NCBI RefSeq assembly: GCF_025602895.1
Contig: NW_026516224.1
Coordinates: 310,001 to 374,000, forward strand
Direction of reading: 5' to 3'
DNA length: 64,000 nucleotides
DNA from: Polychytrium aggregatum
Taxonomy: Eukaryota; Chytridiomycota; Chytridiomycetes; Polychytriales
Each line of letters begins with the position of its first letter. Within the stretch, counting starts at the first letter, position 1. The translations under genes were made by a program, and so were the position numbers. The notes below the pieces were generated by a model that saw nothing but the letters and a program-made list of their open reading frames with translations, did not search any database and was not told the DNA's origin. Positions 1,665-64,000 of this stretch are shown piece after piece.

Positions 1665-2135
1665 CACACGCGAATGGATTGCATCGAGGGTTGTGTTTGT
1701 CCTGGCCAGCATGCCTCAGTTCCTCCGTTGTGCCGATCCCGATCCAAGTAATCCCATCTCACGTCGGTCCACACTCTCCATCTCATCGCCCACTCTGTCA
1801 TCCTCGCTCCAATGAACGGACTGAAATCGAATCAAATCCTATGAAATCAACTGGAATGAAATACAGTCGGGTGGATCTGCCTCGGTTTATTTGGACTATC
1901 TGTTCCCGCTCCGGAGGGCCTCGTTGTCGAACAACCAGTGATGATCGCCGTCGATCCGATCGAGCTCTCGACAAGCACAGCCCGGCCAAGATCGTGCTGA
2001 TTCCGGCCACGACCGACTCGCCGTCGATACAAGCCACCAATCCATCAAAAACTGCCCAGCCCGACGCCGGCCAGCATTGGCTTTCATAGCCACATTGAGC
2101 CTCACAATGTCTCGCCGTCTCATTTCCTCGCACAT
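1665..2135 (+). pseudogene. Decayed copy of the 3' end of the gene at 38.8-39.4 kb
   Basis: This stretch matches 38785-39385 (opposite strand) at high identity, covering most of that gene's last intron and its last exon through the stop codon (protein end QPDAGQHWLS). Relative to the other copy, about 156 bp spanning the intron 3' splice site and the start of the last exon are missing. The break lies at a CTGTTC hexamer that occurs at both ends of the lost segment. A single-base loss (AGCCCGG versus GGCCCCGG) also shifts the frame. No upstream exons of the gene are seen here, so it is a non-functional fragment. Because intron sequence is retained, it arose by DNA duplication and not by retroposition. 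Confidence 0.8.
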
Positions 2136-3298
2136 GGCACATTATCCTGTTCAGTAACGCGATCTTGTCTGTACTTCGTTCGGACAGCACTGCATAGCTG
2201 CTTGCCAAATCAGGCACCGCGCGCCGCACACGGTTTCACGGACGCGAGTTTTGGCGCCATTGTGTGCCGTGGCTCGGACTGTGGGGAGCCTGCTTTCTCT
2301 GTGCGGCTTCTGTTGTGACACAATTCTGTTGCGCTGTCCTCGCCGGGCCGGGCGAGAGCGCACCGAGAGCGCACCGAGAGCGCACCGAGAGCGCACCGAG
2401 GCCACGCCGCCGGATCGCCATTTTTCTTCGGCTTTGCCTCGCCGTCGCCTTTCGATTCCATCCCGAGCGCAACCTGAGTGAACGGAGGGCCTTTTGGAAC
2501 AGGTAACGCTCCCAGATGGCTTGATACTCTGGCTTGATACTTTTGATATTTGATTTGATGCTCTTGATGCCTTTCATACCTTCGATTTGATACCCTGGCT
2601 TGGCTCTCTGGCTGCACATACGGACGACCCAATGTGGCCGCCCTTCTGCGTCCATATCCCCTCTTGCCGCCTGGACATCCTCGGATCCCCCTCCCCATGC
2701 CGCTCATGCTCGATCGCCCAATCCGTCTTTGCCATGTCCGACCTTTGTTTATCCCCGAGTGCCTTACCGTCGCGGCCGTCGTGGCCGTCGTGACCTTCGT
2801 GGCCGCCGTCGCTCTGCTGGGCATTTCCGTCTGCTCCTCGCTCCCACCGCCGTTTCTCTCCCGCTCCTCTTCCCCGCTGGACCCTGTTGGCTGCCTTCTC
2901 CATCGCCCTTCCCTCGGTCTCGTCTGTCCTTGGCTTCCGTTTTCCCATCGTCTTCTGCCCCGGCGAGCTTCAGCACCATCCATACTAATATCTTCTCTGC
3001 CGCTCACGCTTCTCCCCAACCCAACCTCCGCTCAGGTGCGTTCCTGGCTGTTGCCATCATCGGCCCTGCGATGGCTTCCGATCGCATCCCGCCATGCTTC
3101 TGTTTCCGTTCTTCTGTCTTCTGTCCTCTGTTCCGTCGCTTTCTGATTCGCAGCCCTGTCATGCCGCACTCTTGATTATCGCTGACACAACGCTCGCACC
3201 GCCTCCCTACAGACCCCTGTTCGCCCCTTCACTAGAGTGGAATCAAACCCCCCCCCAAAGGCCTCAACCCCCCCCCTTTCCCAGAACCTCTAAGCACT
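2136..3298. other. Intergenic region upstream of Argonaute
   Basis: About 1.16 kb with no convincing gene. The plus strand is strongly C/T-rich from about 2640 onward, and the long open frame on the minus strand is Arg/Gly-rich low complexity. It holds four copies of an 11 bp unit (GAGAGCGCACC) at 2353-2400, a run of GTCGTGGCC-like triplets near 2768-2812, and poly-C runs just before the Argonaute ATG. Confidence 0.6.
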
Positions 3299-6200
3299 AT
3301 GCTCCAGTTCCCCACCCGACCTGGCATCGGTGGCTCTGGACGGCCCATCCAGGTCCGCTCCAACTTCTTCCCCATCCTGACCCTTCCGAACCAAAACGTC
3401 CACCAGTACGAGGTCACGATCTACCCCGATGTTCCTCCCGCCAAGAACAGAAGGGTCATCCGTCTCTGGGAGGAGGCTTCCATCATCGCCGGCACCCTCA
3501 ACGGCGTTCGACCCATCTATGACGGACGAAAGCACATGTTTACATCCAGACCCATTCCCATGGAGTCTGATTCCGTTGTTTACTACTTGGACTACTATGA
3601 GGACGAGGATTGGAAGAGGTTCGTTTGGCGTTGCTGGTGTGCTGTTGCCGCATGTTGCACCCGTGAGCGCTCTCCCAGTACCTCCTGATGAGCCCCGGGG
3701 CGAGTTCCCGTTTTCCCCACACTCGCCTCGCTGGCCCAAACGCTCACAATATGTCTCACCAACTTCAAATCGGCTCTGCTGTGCATCCACCCGACCCCAT
3801 ATCACGCCCTTCCCTCGGCTGTTCCATTGCCCCTCCATCGACCGCCTTGATATCGCCCACTTGATCGACGTCCCCTCTCGGTCGGTCGGTCGCTTTCAGC
3901 CCTAGCCTCACTGGCACTGGCTCTCCGACCAAGCCCAGAAGCCCAGTTTCGCCCCAGCCTGTGCCCACCCTGTCGACTACCGACAACACCTCGACGGATC
4001 TGGTCGATGGTCGCAAGAGGTTCGTGGCGCGTCAGCAGACAGGCGCAGCTGTCCATAAACCGAAATTTAGGGGTCGCTTTCGCCGGGTCACCCCGTGCTT
4101 ATTGCCAGCGTTCTTATCGGGCTGCTCTTTACGATTCCTCCCTGCCGCAGCTCCAAAAAGTTCAAGCTGACCATTGCCAAGATTGGCGAAATCAACATGT
4201 CCCGCCTCAGCCTGTTCTTGGATGGCCGTCTCTCGGAAACTCCTTTGGATGCCATCGGCGCCCTCGACATTCTCCTCCGCCACCGTCCCTCTCTGATGTA
4301 CACCACCGTCGGCCGCTGCTTCTACACCTCCGATTCGGCCGCCATGATTGCGAACGGTGCTCAGCTCTGGCAGGGATTCCACCAGAGTCTGCGTCCTGCC
4401 CGCGGCCAGATGCTGATCAACCTCGATGTCTCCGCCACCGCCTTTTATCAGACGGGTATGTGTTGCGTTCTCGACGATCTAGCAAGCAGCTTATCTTGAA
4501 TCCTTCATCCGCTGTCCTTGGCCCTCTTTTCCTCTTCGTCTATGTCATTCATTCACCTGGCCCCCATCTCGACGTCGATCAAACGCCATCGAGCCGTGCC
4601 ACTTTCGATCGTCTCCGTTTGTTAAACTGCTCTGCTCACCCCACTCCCCCTTCCTTTGTCTACCCAGGCCCCGTCGTCGAGATTGTTGCCAAGATCCTCG
4701 GCAAGCAATCCGCCGGCGAGCTTCGCTCCATCCTCTCAGACAAGGATCGCCAGAAGCTCGAAAAGACCCTCAAGGGCCTCAAGGTCGTCGTCACCCATCG
4801 TGGCCAGGTCCGCCGCAAATACCGCATCGCCAAGCTCACCAGCACCCCCGCCAACCGCACCATGTTCGTCGTCGGTCAAGATGCTGCCACGGGCGCGACC
4901 GGCACCGAAGAGTCGGTTGCCAGCTACTTCCAGGCCAAATACAACCGCCACCTGTACTTCCCTCATCTGCCGTGCTTGGTTGTCGGCGATCCGAGCAAGC
5001 ACGTCTACCTTCCGCTGGAGGTTTGCGAGATCATCCCGGGCCAGCGTCATCTGCGCAAGCTGAACGAGCGCCAGGTAAGCAAATGTTGCCATGGTCGGCT
5101 GTGGTCCGATGCCCACTGCCCGCGACGTCCTGTGTGTGCTCGAAATCGCTTCAGCGATTGCTTGCGACTGCTCAACAGCCCCCAGTTGCCTGCTACCTCT
5201 GCCCCTACTGCCTCCTGTCTCCTGCCGCTGGTCTCGCTTGTCTGCAACAACATTCTCTGACCCGGTTCTTCATTCGTGCTGCGTCGGTGTTCATTGCGTG
5301 CGCAGACGGCCGAGATGATCAAGTTCACTTGCCAGCCCCCGCACGTCCGCTCCAACAAGATTTCGGCCGGCATCACCATTCTGCAGCAGCGCGACAACGA
5401 CTACCTCAAGGACTTTGGTGTGCAGATTGGCCACGAGATGGCGATCGTTAATGCCCGTGTGCTGCCGGCGCCCTCGATCTCGTACCATCCCGCCTCCAAG
5501 GAGCCCGTCATCACCCCACGTGAAGGCGCCTGGAACCTCCGCGACAAGATGGTGGCCCAGGGTGTCATCATCCGCTCTTGGTCCGTCGTTGCCTTTGGCT
5601 CTGAGGCCGACTACCCCGTCGGCGCCGTCCAAAAGTTCGTCACGCTTCTGGTGCAGACCTGCGAAGAGTGCGGTGTCTTTATCCAGAACCGTCAGCCTCC
5701 GATTTCGTATGCCAACCCGCAGGGCAACGTCGAGAAGACCCTCATCGACGCCTACATGGTGGCCGGCAACTCGTTCCAGGAGCGGCCCCAGCTGATTGTC
5801 TGCGTGCTGCCCAACACGGGTGTGCCGCTCTATGCCGAAATCAAGCGTGTCTCCGACACGGTCATTGGCATTGCTACCCAGTGCATTCAGGCCAAGCACA
5901 TGTTTGCGGCCAAGCGCCAGTACTGTGCCAACGTCTGTCTCAAGATCAACGTCAAGCTCGGCGGCATGAACTCGTACCTCTCCAACACGCAGCTTCCCTT
6001 CATCAGCGAACGCCCTACCATTGTCTTTGGCGCCGATGTAACTGTAAGTGGCTTTGGATCGTGTGTTCAGCATTGCTCGCGCCCCCCCCCTGCCTGCAAG
6101 TTGGCGGTCGGACGTTGCTGTACTTGTCGCCCATGATACTCACAATCGATGCTCTTTCTGTTATGACCAATGATCACGCTCCCCACTCACGATCTGCTCG

Positions 6201-36829: not shown

Positions 36830-37010
36830 GCGGATCACTTCCAAGCGAAGTCCGCGGGCCGCTCTCTGATCTTCGTAATCGCTCTCCGATCTTCACGATC
36901 TCTCTCCAGTCTCCATGACCGCCATGCACGCAGCAATCATGTTGCGCGCCGCATCGGCATCGCGATTCTGCACAGGCACACCCTTGGTGGCTGATCAGAA
37001 ACCCGGGCTG
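36830..37010 (-). pseudogene. Degenerate Fanzor 3' end
   Basis: On the minus strand this reads QNRDADAARNMIAACM then METGERS and a stop. It matches the end of the intact Fanzor at 61032-63398 (WNRDVNAARNMITVC, then VETGERPVV). Homology continues past that early stop to the AGTGATC that follows the intact gene's stop, but with an internal duplication of a GAAGATCGGAGAGCG-like unit. The zinc ribbon and everything upstream is missing or unrecognisable. It lies about 220 bp upstream of RTT109. Confidence 0.75.
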
Positions 37011-37231
37011 GATTTCAGCACGTGATTTCCGAAATTGGGCAAATGACATCCCGCCCCGTTTCATGGCTCGCGACACCGCTTGCCATCCGAACCAGCGTTG
37101 CTCGCATCGCTCTGGAAGCATCTGTCGTCCAAGTCGAATCCACTGGGACATCTGGCAGGTGGAAAGACCCTACTCGAGATCGATCCCGCTGAGCATCTGG
37201 ACCAGCAACGCGGCCACGCAGCCACGCAGCC

Positions 37232-38644
37232 ATGACCGTCGACTATACAGGCGATCTGAGCCAGTTCGTCAGCACCTCCATTCAGAAATATGTTCTGGGC
37301 AGCCACACCCTGCGTGTAGACTGCATCGCGGCAAGACTGGATCCGCCAGCGCAGCTATTTGAGGAACCATCCACGTCGCAGCAGCTGGATCGGCTGGTGC
37401 TCATCTCCAAGGTCGGTTCGTCTCCGCTGATTGTCTTTGGCATGAAGGTCTCCGAGTTTGTTGTCTGCGAGACCGGGTCCGACTCGGCTCGGTCTGTGCA
37501 TGCCTATATCGAGAAGATCGACTCGACCGGATTCTTCGACCACAGCCTTGCTCGCTCTGAGGCCTCGGCGGGTCAGGATTTCTATTCGATATCCCGGTCG
37601 ACGCTGTTTGGCTACATCCAGCACCTCTACGATCGCTACAAGTCGCAGGCTCCGGAGATTTGGGTCCACACATTCGCTCGCTCGATGCCTGAGTACCTGT
37701 TCCCAGACTCCAAGCTCAACCCTGGAAAGTACCGCGCCAGTAATCCCGGCGCCGGCCTCGTTCGGTGGTGGAAGTCGACTCTGGACCAAGCCATGGCCAA
37801 AATGGATCCGCAGCCGATATCCGAGGCATTCTGGCTCGTCCCCGGCGAGGGCGAGGCGCTCGCCCGCCGCTTCTTTGAAGCCCCCGGATGTGTTCTCAAA
37901 TGGAACTGGGGGCTGCCTTGGCCAGCACACGGGTCCGCGGCAGTGCTGGTTCCCCGGTTCCCGGACGACCCGAAAGGCCGCATCATCGCCGATTCCCTGA
38001 GCACTGCAGCCAAACCATCCGGAAAGCCAACGCTGACGGTCAAGTCCCTGGTCAACATGCTCGAGTGCTCAGGCGAGTCGTCGAACCAGACCACTTGCTA
38101 TTTTGTGGTGCGCATGCAAGCCGCCCACAACGCCGACGAGCCGAGTTGCGGTATGGATCGCTCCAGAGAGGGATGCACCGACTCAAACCTGTGCGATCAC
38201 AAGGCATTCGAAGCCATCACCAAGGAGCTTGGGAGTGGATGCTACAGTAGCCAACAGAATGCAGTTCAATCCAGCGACCGCCTGATCAAACTGTTCCGCG
38301 AGACCCCGGGCACCACATGCTCCCATATTCGCATCGAGAACGTCCCCAAAGCAAAGGGTTTGGATGAAACTGCGGTCAACTCAAGCACAGCCCCAGCAAC
38401 GACAATCACCAGTCTTCAGGGTTTGATCAAGAAGAAGAGCAAAACGGCGCCAAATACTGTCGTAACCAGCAGCATTCCCGACGGAAGTGCAACATCCTCA
38501 ATAGCGAGCACCTCCGTTGTAGAGTCCCGTTCCAACGATATCCAAAGCCTCGTGAAGCGCAAGCAGCGACCGCCAATGCAGACCAATCCGGACAGCGAGC
38601 CAGCCAAGCGCATGAAGCCTGGGGCGGGCAATGATTGCGAGTAA
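37232..38644 (+). CDS. RTT109: Histone acetyltransferase Rtt109 (H3K56)
   Basis: A single 470-residue exon begins at a true ATG with no upstream in-frame ATG. Rtt109 is the fungal p300-fold acetyltransferase that, with Asf1 or Vps75, acetylates histone H3 on Lys56 (and Lys9/27) during DNA replication. The family block PEYLFPDSKLNPGK followed by RWW is at about residues 153-185. The GEGEALARRFF and KWNWGLPWP segment (about residues 208-232) matches the C-terminal half of the catalytic fold. The last 130 residues are Ser/Thr-rich and end in a basic stretch (VKRKQRPPMQ, PAKRMKPG) that probably acts as a nuclear signal. Unlike most neighbours it has no intron. Confidence 0.9.
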   Translation: MTVDYTGDLSQFVSTSIQKYVLGSHTLRVDCIAARLDPPAQLFEEPSTSQQLDRLVLISKVGSSPLIVFGMKVSEFVVCETGSDSARSVHAYIEKIDSTGFFDHSLARSEASAGQDFYSISRSTLFGYIQHLYDRYKSQAPEIWVHTFARSMPEYLFPDSKLNPGKYRASNPGAGLVRWWKSTLDQAMAKMDPQPISEAFWLVPGEGEALARRFFEAPGCVLKWNWGLPWPAHGSAAVLVPRFPDDPKGRIIADSLSTAAKPSGKPTLTVKSLVNMLECSGESSNQTTCYFVVRMQAAHNADEPSCGMDRSREGCTDSNLCDHKAFEAITKELGSGCYSSQQNAVQSSDRLIKLFRETPGTTCSHIRIENVPKAKGLDETAVNSSTAPATTITSLQGLIKKKSKTAPNTVVTSSIPDGSATSSIASTSVVESRSNDIQSLVKRKQRPPMQTNPDSEPAKRMKPGAGNDCE

Positions 38645-60147: not shown

Positions 60148-60690
60148 CTACTGGACTCGTCTCTCGACCAAGACATCGACGCCGTCCTTGTAGCCCTGGG
60201 TGGCCGAGAAGATAATGCGGAGCTGGCTAGGGTCGAGCAGCTTGAGGTTATACCGCTGGAGCGTTCGGATAAGGAACACCTTGTTGTAGCCAAAGGAAGC
60301 AGTAGAAGCGAAAGTGTGTCAACAGTGGGTCAACCAGCGAGAGGTGCAAAGTGGGCACATGAATGTCCTTAGCAAATATCTCTGATGATCGATCATGCCC
60401 GGCCAGCGCATACGTCGGCTTGGACAGATATTTGTACCAACGTCGCTGCTCTGCTTTCTCTCACCTTGGTTTCGATGTTGGCCATTTTCTGGCCGATGCA
60501 GTTCATCGGACCATCGCCAAATGGCAAGAAGCTGCCAGGCACTATCGGCTCGCTCCAGCGATCGGGGTTGAAGGTATTGGGATCCTTCCAGTACTTGGGG
60601 TTGCGGTGCAGGTGCGAGACAACCAAGACGACGTTGGTCTTGCGGTTCAAGTGACAGATGATCAAATCACGGGTGAGTCCTCGAAGCCCC
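60148..60690 (-). pseudogene. Cytochrome P450, isolated 3' end
   Basis: Two exons are read, about 60690-60465 and 60279-60148, joined in phase 0. They encode only the last about 115 residues of a P450: NVVLVVSHLHRNPKYW, DPNTFNPDRW, the heme-binding loop FLPFGDGPMNCIGQKMA with its Cys ligand, then a beta-rich end with LVERRVQ. The usual 380 upstream residues (I-helix, ExxR) are not present before the Fanzor gene, which starts about 340 bp upstream. The fragment was probably cut off by transposon insertion, or its upstream exons lie beyond the element. Confidence 0.75.
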
Positions 60691-61031
60691 CGGTCGCGGA
60701 GAGGCGAGCGAAGGGTTGATGCACATATCGGCAACAGCATATGACCCATATCCGTTCAGGATCCCTCGCTCAAAGGGCCGACAAGAGGGCGATAAAAAGA
60801 CTCTGGCTCTGTATATCGAGAGCGCATCACATCAAAAGGCGAACGACGGTTCGAGCGATCCGCTGCACTTACCCCCTTCGCCACAGGATAGCCCCGAATG
60901 TGTGTGTCGCGGCTGGCCACACGCGGGATACACTTTATTCAGAAAAAAAACGGGACAATATAGCCGTTTCCATGAACATGTAGTATGTGCTGTGCTTGCG
61001 TCAAGCAAAGCCACAAGAAATAAAAAACAGA
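60691..61031. other. Fanzor 3' flank, candidate guide-RNA region
   Basis: About 340 bp between the P450 remnant and the Fanzor stop. On the minus strand there is an AATAAA signal (60942-60947) after a long T run (60948-60955 region). In this class of nuclease the guide RNA usually spans the gene's 3' end and the element end, so this is the place to look for it. No RNA structure was computed. Confidence 0.35.
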
Positions 61032-63398
61032 TCACTTTGGCAGCCTCCGAGTGAAGACCACCGGTCGCTCTCCGGTCTCCACAATCGACCTGCACACCGT
61101 GATCATGTTGCGCGCCGCATTGACGTCGCGATTCCACACTGTCCGGCAGCTGGGATTCTTGCAGCTCCTGACAAAGTGGGAATTCGCAACACTGGGCGCA
61201 TCGAGTCCTTCCAACCGAACTGGCTCCAGGCACTTGGAGCACACTTGCGAGGTGTTGAACTCGTTCGTCGAGGCCACCTTGACGCTTCCATGAGGGTGAT
61301 TGGGACGGCGTCGGTGGTGCTCGAATTGCTCAAAGTACCGAGCAAACCGCTGCCTCCGAGGGCTGGATGCATAGCCCTTGCCTTGACGCCATGACGCATT
61401 GCCAAAGGCGATCACCACATCGGTCCGTATCGGGGCGTGCTTCAGGACGGCCTTGCACATCCTGTCGACGGCCACTTGGCGCCTCTTGTGGCCTGTGAAG
61501 CGATGGTGACGGGCCTTCTTGCCAAGGTGGAAGTCGAGCTGTACTCGCGGCTCCGGTCGCAGGACATGGGTGAGATGGACCTTGAAAGCCTCCGAGGACG
61601 ACACCTTGGGCGAGGGAGTGGTCGACATCCAGGTCTCGATGCTGAGTCGATACTTCATGGTATTGTGCCACTTGGTGTTGGACGTATGGCCACACATGTG
61701 CTGGTAGTGGCCATTCGAGAATGAGACCACCTCGTCTTGGTGGCCCGGTGCTTGGATGACCGCCGTGAAGATGGAGCCGACTCCAGGATCGATGCCAATC
61801 CAAGTGGTGCGGTTGGGGTCTGGGTTGCCAATGTGCTCCTGGATGCGCTGCTCGGCAGTCGGAGGAGGCTCGATGGTCTCGGTGTGATCAGTTCGACGCA
61901 CAAACTTGACGAGGCCGATGGTGCATCCAATTCCATCGGTGCTGATCTCGTAGTTGAACAGCTTCTTGTCCCTGACCCGCTCTTGGAAGAGGGAACTACG
62001 CAGCTTGAAGCAACTGCGCCAGAGACGATCCTGGTTGTTGATGCCGTCCTCACCTTCTTCCTTGAGCTTGTCCCTGGTGAGTCTAAGACGATGTTCGGTG
62101 TCAAGGAGTTGCCAGAGAGTGACCGTGTCAATCTTGACATACTTGGCCGTGGCAGTGCACAGAGGGACCATCGTGCACACGGCCGGAGGAGTGTCCAGAG
62201 CGAGCTGCTTGAGTGCCCAGTTGATCCTGGCGGCCAGCTTGTTGATCTTGGACTTGGTGGTGCCGAGCTCCGACTTGGCCGTGGTGAACCTCTTGTCGTC
62301 GGAGGGAATGCCTTGGGTAGTGAGCTCGTCCAGCTTGGCCTGGCGCTGCAGCTCGGTGACTCGGAGGGCGGGCATGTCACAGTCGATCCACTTGTGGACA
62401 TTGTCGACCATCTTGTCTCGGGCGAGGATTCTCACATGGTGTGAGAGGCGATGGAGGGCCCGGAAGCGGTCCTGGTCGTTGCTGTACCGAAACTCGTCCA
62501 GGACGTGGCCAAAGTCTGGATAGAGGAACTCGAGATCGGCCTTGGGTGGAGTCTGCCCTGGTTTCTCGAAGAGCTCGAGACAGGCCTCGATGGCGTCGTG
62601 CTTATGCTTGTTGGCTGGGAAGACGGCAGCGCAGAAGCGGCGAAGGAGTCGCCAGTAGGCCAGGTTGAGGTGGGTGGTGCAGTTGGTGGCATAGGCATTG
62701 ACAGCCAGTGTGAGAAGCTGACTGTGAGCACCATCAGGCAGACGAGGGGCCGGAGGCAGGTCTGTGTGCCGAGTGGTCTGGTAGTCGCGAAAGGAAGCGA
62801 CCAGATGCTCGTTGTATTTCTCATTGTCCCCGGTCGGCGAGAGGGCATCGGCCTGGACGATCCTGAAGCATTGGCGGATGAAAGCAGGGGTGGACTTGGA
62901 GATGACGGGGACGGGAATATCCTGCTCGATGCACCGGAGGATGTGCAGGTTGAGCAGCCTGGATGCCTCGAACTGGATCTGGGTCATGGCCTCGACGGTG
63001 GCCTGGATCTTGTCGCGGAGAGCGGGATTGAGACAACAGCCATCCATCGTCTGCTTGAAGCAGCTGAACTGAGGGGCGGATGACCTTCCATCCACGAGTG
63101 GGACGACAGAACTCTTGAGGGGCCGGTATTTGGGACATTTGCTGGTGTTGCTTCGCTCGTGGTCGGTACCGTCGCACTGGCGACATCGCTTGACAGGACC
63201 AGATGAGGGACCAGGCTCGGTGGGATCGACATCCATTGGATCTGCAGAAGCAGTGGTGGTGAGCGACGGAGCAACAGACGACCAAGCATGCGTGGGGTCA
63301 GAAGACGAACCAGAGACAGGCTCCGACTGTGACTTGGCTTTCTTGGGCCTGGGTGGCCGAGGCTGGCCATCACCGGTACCCTTGCGCTTCGGAGGCAT
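61032..63398 (-). CDS. Fanzor (eukaryotic TnpB-like RNA-guided nuclease)
   Basis: An intact, intronless 788-residue gene from a true ATG (MPPKRKGTG). Fanzors are transposon-borne eukaryotic relatives of TnpB/Cas12 that cut DNA with a guide RNA. The N-terminus is disordered with basic nuclear signals (PPKRK, RPKKAK). A zinc-knuckle-like motif CRQCDGTDHERSNTSKC is at about residues 93-109. RuvC-I is GIDPGVGSIFTA (D537). The usual RuvC-II Glu site reads VVIAFGNAS, with no acid. A Glu instead precedes the zinc ribbon in STNEFNTSQVCSKC (E713), the rearranged site described for Fan. Confidence 0.9.
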   Translation of the reverse strand: MPPKRKGTGDGQPRPPRPKKAKSQSEPVSGSSSDPTHAWSSVAPSLTTTASADPMDVDPTEPGPSSGPVKRCRQCDGTDHERSNTSKCPKYRPLKSSVVPLVDGRSSAPQFSCFKQTMDGCCLNPALRDKIQATVEAMTQIQFEASRLLNLHILRCIEQDIPVPVISKSTPAFIRQCFRIVQADALSPTGDNEKYNEHLVASFRDYQTTRHTDLPPAPRLPDGAHSQLLTLAVNAYATNCTTHLNLAYWRLLRRFCAAVFPANKHKHDAIEACLELFEKPGQTPPKADLEFLYPDFGHVLDEFRYSNDQDRFRALHRLSHHVRILARDKMVDNVHKWIDCDMPALRVTELQRQAKLDELTTQGIPSDDKRFTTAKSELGTTKSKINKLAARINWALKQLALDTPPAVCTMVPLCTATAKYVKIDTVTLWQLLDTEHRLRLTRDKLKEEGEDGINNQDRLWRSCFKLRSSLFQERVRDKKLFNYEISTDGIGCTIGLVKFVRRTDHTETIEPPPTAEQRIQEHIGNPDPNRTTWIGIDPGVGSIFTAVIQAPGHQDEVVSFSNGHYQHMCGHTSNTKWHNTMKYRLSIETWMSTTPSPKVSSSEAFKVHLTHVLRPEPRVQLDFHLGKKARHHRFTGHKRRQVAVDRMCKAVLKHAPIRTDVVIAFGNASWRQGKGYASSPRRQRFARYFEQFEHHRRRPNHPHGSVKVASTNEFNTSQVCSKCLEPVRLEGLDAPSVANSHFVRSCKNPSCRTVWNRDVNAARNMITVCRSIVETGERPVVFTRRLPK

Positions 63399-63645: not shown

Positions 63646-64000
63646 TCACACCCAGAAGCGCATCGCTCGCTCAATCAGCCGTGGGAAGACATCTGGAAGC
63701 ACCCTCCGCACGGCAGACTCAAACAGGGTCACCATCCCGATCTTGAACCCCTCGGACGCATTCAGCGCTGCTGCCTTCCTGTACTGATGCTTCACAATCC
63801 CAAAGAAGTTCTCGATGGGATTGAAGTCGGGTGAAGCAGGTGGGGTGAAAATCACTGACCATCCTCGGCGCTCGATGCAGCACACCAGAGTGGTTGATGG
63901 CAAATGCAGCCGAGACAGACTTGTGTTTCATGTGATTGCGCTGGCGAAGCGGAGCACCCTTCGGTGAGTATCCGTAGAGAGGGAAAATGGATCTCCTGAT
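63646..64000 (-). pseudogene. Tc1/mariner-IS630 DDE transposase, C-terminal fragment
   Basis: Read from the right edge, one frame gives GYSPKGAPLRQRNHMKHKS then SVSAAFAI, typical of the middle of Tc1/IS630-type transposases. The frame then changes near 63890, and the other frame gives RRGWSVIFTPPASPDFNPIE, with the third catalytic acid in PIENFFG, ending at 63646. The stretch that should carry the second catalytic Asp is missing between the two, so the gene is broken by a deletion or frameshift. It lies on the same strand as Fanzor and 250 bp upstream of it. The 5' part is outside the window. Confidence 0.75.

Follow-up and report, generated by a model that had tools for sequence, protein, structure and literature searches.

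Which nuclease does the long reading frame near the right end of a 64,000-nucleotide stretch of the chytrid Polychytrium aggregatum encode, and what kind of element carries it? The stretch, called the window below, covers positions 310,001 to 374,000 of the forward strand of contig NW_026516224.1 (assembly GCF_025602895.1). A first-pass annotation, made from the letters alone, had described the frame as an intact Fanzor with a rearranged RuvC active site. Our comparisons support its identification as a Fanzor1 with a DPG motif and a displaced glutamate. We also found that the gene lies in a Tc1/mariner-like transposon, and we examined the copies of this transposon, their insertion sites, and the apparent exchange of sequence between them. 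We label the window protein P0001 and the retrieved loci L009, L011, and so on. The gene and its motifs have the following window positions.

61032..63398, minus strand: Fanzor1 coding sequence, one uninterrupted frame of 788 amino acids plus stop with an ATG start, identified by PF07282, profile match, and genome copies.
63327..63395, minus strand: basic N-terminus, residues 2-24 (PPKRKG, RPKKAK), nuclear-signal-like as judged by eye.
63135..63185, minus strand: N-terminal CCHC-like knuckle, C72-x2-C75-x4-H80-x7-C88.
61788..61790, minus strand: D537 in GIDPG (residues 535-539), RuvC-I, aligned with SpuFz1 D383.
61260..61262, minus strand: E713 in NEFNTSQVC (from residue 712), displaced RuvC-II glutamate, aligned with SpuFz1 E541.
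61146..61241, minus strand: zinc ribbon C720-C723 / C746-x4-C751 in the PF07282 region (CSKC at 720, CKNPSC at 746).
61125..61127, minus strand: D758 in WNRD (RDVNAARN from residue 757), RuvC-III, aligned with SpuFz1 D606.

The window protein as a Fanzor1

We confirmed what the first-pass annotation had observed of this gene. The frame runs without interruption from its ATG at 63398 to its stop at 61032, and D537, E713, D758, CSKC, and CKNPSC had all been placed exactly. The residue at the canonical RuvC-II position, described as non-acidic, is A664 in VVIAFGN, and no acidic residue is found there. Six residues separate E713 from C720 of the zinc ribbon.

P0001 matched one Pfam family only, PF07282 (Cas12f1-like TNB; E value, 6.2e-9; residues 706-765). 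We found that residues 1-788 were covered at 94-100% identity in 57 places in the genome, including the window copy (the best 57 of 1319 candidates), and that 52 of these 57 lacked an internal stop. Because of the PF07282 match and the 57 full-span matches, the frame is not a chance open reading frame. Among 20 copies with a full-length Fanzor frame, D537, P538, G539, and D758 were conserved in all; E713 was conserved in 19 (L018 has K) and C720 in 18 (L029 and L039 have R). The CCHC-like knuckle was kept in all 20 full-length copies aligned; the first 110 residues, which include it, had no Pfam match.

The Fanzor layout proposed in the first pass held up in a profile search, which put the gene in Fanzor1 and aligned its three acids with SpuFz1 D383, E541, and D606 (numbered by a hand count on the printed chain, with an offset of 394 between the 1032-residue chain and the 638 residues). 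In SpuFz1, these residues and N385 coordinate two magnesium ions (PMC10432273). The profile, A3, was built from two sequences, P0001 and a bridging homologue, L043. Against solved chains, A3 matched PpFz1 (5.3e-24), SpuFz1 (1.2e-20), and GtFz1 (2.3e-16), the sole solved chains below 0.001; besides Fanzor1, just two LaTranC sequences (0.026 and 0.028) were among the chains listed to an E value of 1. The nearest profile match is thus Fanzor1 and not Fanzor2 or TnpB.

L043 is a Fanzor1 frame of 671 amino acids at positions 1785-3797 of a 4.1-kb contig labeled viral in IMG/VR. It came from an IMG/VR scan with a small alignment (A1), which also yielded L044-L046; L044 and L045 resemble prokaryotic TnpB by eye. 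L043 alone matched PpFz1 at 4.5e-35, SpuFz1 at 2.8e-34, and GtFz1 at 4.4e-23. P0001 and L043 matched each other (4e-12) across residues 419-784, and DPG, E, and WNRD stayed in register. The IMG/VR scan with P0001 alone gave no relative, scans with A3, L043, and A4 gave nothing beyond L043, and a search of a phage collection gave no relative.

The motifs agree with published descriptions of Fanzors. DPG stands at RuvC-I, and a glutamate lies six residues before the ribbon with none at the canonical site, as in the definition given in PMC10711439. The order of Bao and Jurka, D..[TS][TS]..C4 ribbon..RD, is present as D537, T716 S717, C720 C723 C746 C751, and R757 D758. As in Fanzor1, the carrier is a eukaryotic transposon other than IS607, with Tc1/mariner-type terminal inverted repeats (TIRs), TA, and a DDE_3 transposase. 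The protein departs from the published expression DPGx(120-160)E...CxxC...CxxC in its spacing of 173 residues and in its second pair, C-x4-C; this expression picks out TnpBs with Fanzor features, with TnpB-like spacing, and is not a definition of Fanzor1. The C-x4-C pair is also present in SpuFz1. TnpB typically has the canonical RuvC glutamate, unlike the window Fanzor, and the displacement is described as the general active-site layout of Fanzors (PMC10711439). The rearrangement is therefore neither new nor special to this gene.

The carrier transposon and its insertion sites

The carrier is a Tc1/mariner-like element of about 3.74 kb with imperfect TIRs, a TA duplication, and a DD34E transposase gene followed by the Fanzor gene. 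We searched the 64.7-Mb, 418-contig assembly and retrieved the 20 best-scored copies with their flanks for boundary definition. On the upstream side, similarity between these copies extends at most about 1.27 kb from the Fanzor start; on the downstream side, it ends about 100 nt past the stop. The left end reads TA followed by CAGGCAATCCAATAAAAAACGGGACA and the right end TGTCCCGTTTTTTTCTGAATAAAGTG followed by TA; the imperfect TIRs lie inside the TA, and the two are unlike outside a common ACGGGACA. TA flanks both ends at 25 of 26 sites, the exception being L023, with TG on the right. The transposase, of 310 amino acids, is encoded upstream of the Fanzor on the same strand. In L018 it matched DDE_3 (5.7e-22), with HTH_23 below its cut-off, and has D145, D221, and E256; the 34 residues from D221 to E256 give the DD34E spacing.

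The first pass had missed the carrier element, which crosses the right edge of the window and ends at about contig position 374524. The transposase of the window copy has an internal deletion that leaves a 241-amino-acid frame. The parts within the window are as follows.

63646..64000, minus strand: 3' part of the Tc1/mariner (DDE_3) transposase gene, broken in the window copy.
60931..61031, minus strand: element 3' end, from the stop codon to the right TIR (...CCCGTTTTTTTTCTGAATAAAGTG), candidate omega-RNA region.
60929..61014, minus strand: candidate omega-RNA scaffold, a weak call, predicted to form two hairpins, with the right TIR lying in the second.
60924..60930, minus strand: TATCCCG, the right-hand copy of a duplication of 7 bp that starts with TA; its left copy lies past the window, in L009.
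60909..60928, minus strand: predicted guide, the first 20 nt past the right-end TA (host P450 sequence), by analogy with SpuFz1.
60393..60928, minus strand: 3' part of a cytochrome P450 gene broken by the element.

The P450 gene is interrupted between the segments ...PAPLIP and RVASRDTH, and the second copy of this site (L013) has the identical insertion. At the left end of both L009 and L020, a copy of right-flank sequence stands in place of the CAGG tip, which makes the duplication 7 bp rather than 2 bp long (TATCCCG in L009 and TAAGAGC in L020); TTA is still present at both.

We found a strong bias on one side of the insertions. The base before the left TA (position -3) was T at all 26 tabulated sites, and position -4 was A or T at 24 of them; the bases to the right of the element look random. 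These sites came from 32 loci, with L012, L013, and L015 left out as second copies of a site and L024, L036, and L040 as lacking an end. L017 and L026 are one site, and L009 was re-registered by hand by one base, its true -4 base being C. The exact left-end pattern occurred 206 times in the genome and the exact right-end pattern 189 times, counts that include sites assembled twice. A, C, or G stood at -3 in 8 of the 206 left ends, so T is present in at most 198; G or C stood at -4 in 43 TTA-type left ends (the window has about 58% G+C). The mirror-image A followed 35 of the 189 right ends, so the right side has no mirror bias. When we joined the flanks of the window copy, they gave a continuous P450 stretch (PF00067, 44.5 bits, versus 38.5 bits for a control with one inserted residue), and TTA is therefore part of the target. 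In SpuFz1, CA is conserved before the left repeat, the target-adjacent motif (TAM) is CATA, and ghost elements exist (PMC10432273). By analogy with that one-sided arrangement, we predict that the TAM of this Fanzor is 5'-WTTA, with the guide starting after the right-end TA.

The copies range from intact to remnant. A full-length Fanzor frame was present in 18 of the 20 top-scored copies, and the 310-amino-acid transposase frame was present in 8 of the 34 loci scanned. Of the 28 Fanzor-bearing copies translated, 6 had both frames at full length (L012, L013, L018, L020, L027, and L039). As another sample, we took the 20 left ends that come first when the contigs are read in order. Eight were on the list of the best 57 (6 without an internal stop, judged on stops alone), and the other 12 were retrieved separately. 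Of these 12, 8 hold most of the Fanzor gene: 2 at full length (L029 and L039, both C720R), 5 with stops or frameshifts, and 1 without the N-terminal part. The remaining four are two 312-bp ghosts, one 1114-bp derivative, and one truncated copy. The ghosts, L030 and L035, have identical breakpoints. They retain about 102 nt from the left end and 216 nt from the right, among them the final ~113 nt of the Fanzor gene and the candidate omega-RNA region. In L037, the Fanzor part is about 8% different, where most copies average 4-5%, and the gene lacks its first 261 nt; it is perhaps an older lineage.

We counted codon variants in 22 copies, 15 of them from the top-scored set, which favors intact frames. 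Variants common to at least 2 copies numbered 123 synonymous, 94 nonsynonymous, and 0 stop in the Fanzor (ratio to neutral, 0.31) and 34, 23, and 0 in the transposase (0.28). Singletons numbered 75, 85, and 4 (0.47) and 27, 38, and 2 (0.59), respectively. By this measure, the shared variants show purifying selection on both Fanzor and transposase.

The explanation that best accounts for the whole, and that we consider probable, is that the Fanzor1 is an RNA-guided DNA endonuclease, encoded by the second gene of a Tc1/mariner-like transposon, that provides TAM-guided retention of the element. It builds on features read directly from the DNA: the boundaries, the same-strand frames, the homology of the acids, the copy number, the ghosts with both ends, and the one-sided preference for T with an A/T-rich position before it. 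The element 3' end would be transcribed as an omega-RNA, with the host sequence just past the right end as its guide. The Fanzor would then cut the same site, next to 5'-WTTA, where the element is absent, and repair from an element-bearing copy would restore or spread the element. Such defense would be open only to insertions beside a TAM and would thus account for the one-sided motif.

Several results weigh against this explanation. P0001 alone is weak against solved Fanzor1 chains (SpuFz1, 0.068 over the C-terminal 269 residues; GtFz1, 0.79), it matches the NCBIfam TnpB model below the cut-off (25 of 100 bits), and the strong Fanzor1 match depends on the two-sequence profile that includes L043. 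AlphaFold2 models of the single protein (predicted local distance difference test score, 39.2) and of residues 520-788 with L043 (31.7) were both unusable, so that the meeting of D537, E713, and D758 is drawn only from homology to the solved site. The predicted omega-RNA fold of the 3' 90 nt is weak (z score, -1.94; 8 of 200 shuffles equally good), and none of its 29 predicted pairs has a compensatory change. About 8 of the first 20 left ends hold an uninterrupted Fanzor, and many copies are broken. Among the six copies with both frames at full length, L018 has E713K and L039 has C720R; all tested active-site and ribbon residues are intact in the other four. Finally, we found no empty site: the joined flanks of 23 sites (12 plus 11) gave no match across any junction among the best 40 candidates scored per set, in which an empty site would be expected to rank above the listed half-site matches. 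Judged from the spacing of flank matches, 13 of the 23 sites recur on another contig, where they are likewise filled; for 9, the matches listed include no second copy; and L022 is ambiguous. These outcomes fit old insertions and drive to fixation alike.

These last results bear on a different reading, in which the Tc1/mariner lineage is dead or dying and the window Fanzor is intact just because amplification was fairly recent. The broken copies, the broken transposase of the window copy, the mean divergence of about 4% between copies, and the fact that no insertion was seen to be missing from the second copy of its site all agree with such decay. The copies with both frames at full length, four of them with every tested key residue, and the purifying selection in shared variants of both genes argue against it. 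We consider decay of this kind somewhat unlikely.

We think it still less likely that the transposase itself prefers WTTA on one side of its target, with the unlike TIRs orienting integration and no role for the Fanzor. The bias flanks the TA on one side only, whereas Tc1/mariner target preferences are generally symmetric about the TA. SpuFz1 has a similar arrangement on one side, and its TAM was determined by experiment. In favor of a transposase preference, the TIRs do differ outside their common part, and mariner transposases can treat their two ends unequally (PMC4505599).

Probable sequence exchange between copies

We compared elements and flanks at six duplicated or allelic sites (L009/L013, L011/L012, L010/L015, L017/L026, L025/L041, and L028/L042). 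At all six, the elements differed by 3.0-4.7% versus 0-0.57% for the flanks, and the jump in divergence sits at the element edges. Four pairs with long flanks had 36 flank mismatches in 24.9 kb; for L025/L041 and L028/L042, 240-350 nt of flank was compared per side. A value of 1.17% for one 3' flank was an alignment-end effect, with 2 mismatches when 3.7 kb was aligned. In five of the six pairs, 139-381 gap columns also lie between the elements. A comparison of the flanks with the retrieved loci and the window found no other repeat in them that could serve as a control. The mean divergence between copies is 4.1%, so the elements that share a duplicated site differ almost as much as unrelated copies do. 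In a ranking of four pairs, each element still came within its partner's four nearest. Neighbors on one contig can be free of substitutions for long stretches, the first 2450 alignment columns for L012/L013 and about 1110 for L009/L011.

Linkage between variants decays over a very short distance. In a sample of 22 copies, one per duplicated site, r2 was 0.43-0.62 within 5 bp, 0.11-0.13 at 10-15 bp, 0.06-0.12 at 15-50 bp, and 0.05-0.06 at distances over 150 bp; the permuted level was 0.046. Transversion-only and non-CpG sites gave the same result in wider bins, which disfavors recurrent mutation as the cause of the lost linkage. Simple crossing-over between inverted neighbors was also rejected: over the first ~1100 alignment columns, alleles common to both neighbors on one contig are absent from both on the other. 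Some overall structure between copies remains, since distances in different parts of the element are correlated: r was 0.29 between the two halves (permutation P = 0.08), 0.54 between the transposase and Fanzor parts, and 0.63 between interleaved 100-bp windows, in each case with the divergent copy L037 included. The likeliest reading of this pattern is intense ectopic conversion, in short patches, among the element copies, and breaks made by the Fanzor or the transposase, with their repair within the family, may feed it.

Whether the Fanzor has any part in such conversion is a separate matter. Ordinary ectopic gene conversion by the host among dispersed repeats would need no Fanzor, and we give this about the same weight as its opposite. 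That transposable elements undergo gene conversion with one another is known in general (PMC6598467), and the long identical tracts between nearby copies on one contig are the proximity effect expected of general recombination. On the other side, nothing that we counted separates ordinary conversion from Fanzor-linked exchange.

Errors of assembly or polishing in a 3.7-kb repeat, with ~200 similar copies and many regions assembled twice, are an improbable source of the unlike contents at duplicated sites and the lost linkage: the window and the 34 loci contain no N, the gap columns and the long identical tracts between neighbors on one contig count against them, and linkage drops at 10-15 bp, whereas assembly k-mers are usually longer than that.

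The most speculative proposal, which we put below the others in likelihood, is a freely recombining Fanzor transposon. RNA-guided or transposase breaks would be repaired from other copies, so that contents are swapped while insertion positions stay fixed, Fanzor frames circulate, and linkage is strong just within ~15 bp. We found no paper whose title concerns sequence exchange among Fanzor element copies in a literature search that did not cover most subscription journals.

Other Fanzor remnants and known systems

The window has a decayed Fanzor relic at 36899-37078 (minus strand), with 41% identity to residues 722-778 and with stops. It lies near a histone acetyltransferase-like frame at 37232-38641 (plus strand). 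A second, diverged Fanzor family is present in pieces with 52-78% identity (L025:6398-6784, L041:4134-4400, L030:2273-2923 on the minus strand, and L018:6373-6480 on the minus strand). NEFNTSQVC is found in L025, L041, and L030 and WDRDINAARN in L025 and L030; the pieces in L025 and L030 precede a related right end, CTGTCCCGTTTCTTTCTGGATAGACTG followed by TA. Rfam at gathering thresholds and a tRNA search each found nothing in the window.

The closest parallel is the SPu-1/SpuFz1 element of Spizellomyces punctatus, which likewise has a Fanzor1 with aligned D383/E541/D606, TIRs of about 30 bp, a putative TA duplication, and ghosts with both ends (PMC10432273, PMC3627910). The nucleotides to the left of its left repeat are also conserved, as CA in SPu-1 versus WT here, and its omega-RNA comes from the region between the stop codon and the right end, which here is a candidate (PMC10432273). 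The two differ in that these papers found no transposase within the Spu-1 repeats, whereas a Tc1-like transposase is present here (PMC10432273, PMC3627910). The TAM also differs (CATA versus a predicted WTTA), and protein similarity is low enough that a bridging sequence was needed.

The Mariner elements PGv-1 and PUl-1 share with ours a Mariner-type transposase with a Fanzor1, TIRs, and TA duplications; PGv-1 is single copy, whereas here there are ~200 exact ends with population-like variation (PMC3627910). The Fanzor1 of Parasitella parasitica (PDB 9cf0 set), the best solved-chain profile match (5.3e-24), shares the motifs DEFRTS, WNRD, and RP..FSR but has no close sequence identity to the window protein. 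Retention as proposed here follows the logic described for TnpB of IS200/IS605 as a gene drive, in which the site of insertion is recorded in the guide, copies without the element are cut, and those with it win; that system is prokaryotic with another transposase, and drive is proposed for it, where here it is a hypothesis (PMC11870625).

Fanzor1 in Mariner elements with or without a transposase, TA duplications, and multicopy families were already known (PMC3627910), as were Fanzor ghost elements and a TAM (PMC10432273). We add a family of Tc1-Fanzor1 elements whose predicted TAM can be tested and whose copies appear to exchange sequence in an unusual pattern. According to the authors of the SpuFz1 work, the biological role of Fanzors remains unknown (PMC10432273). 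For biochemical work, the window enzyme adds another Fanzor1, one distant from those with solved structures. The family provides ~200 natural insertion sites, a readable WTTA prediction, copies with both genes intact, ghosts, and duplicated sites, which makes the hypothesis of retention or drive directly testable in one genome.

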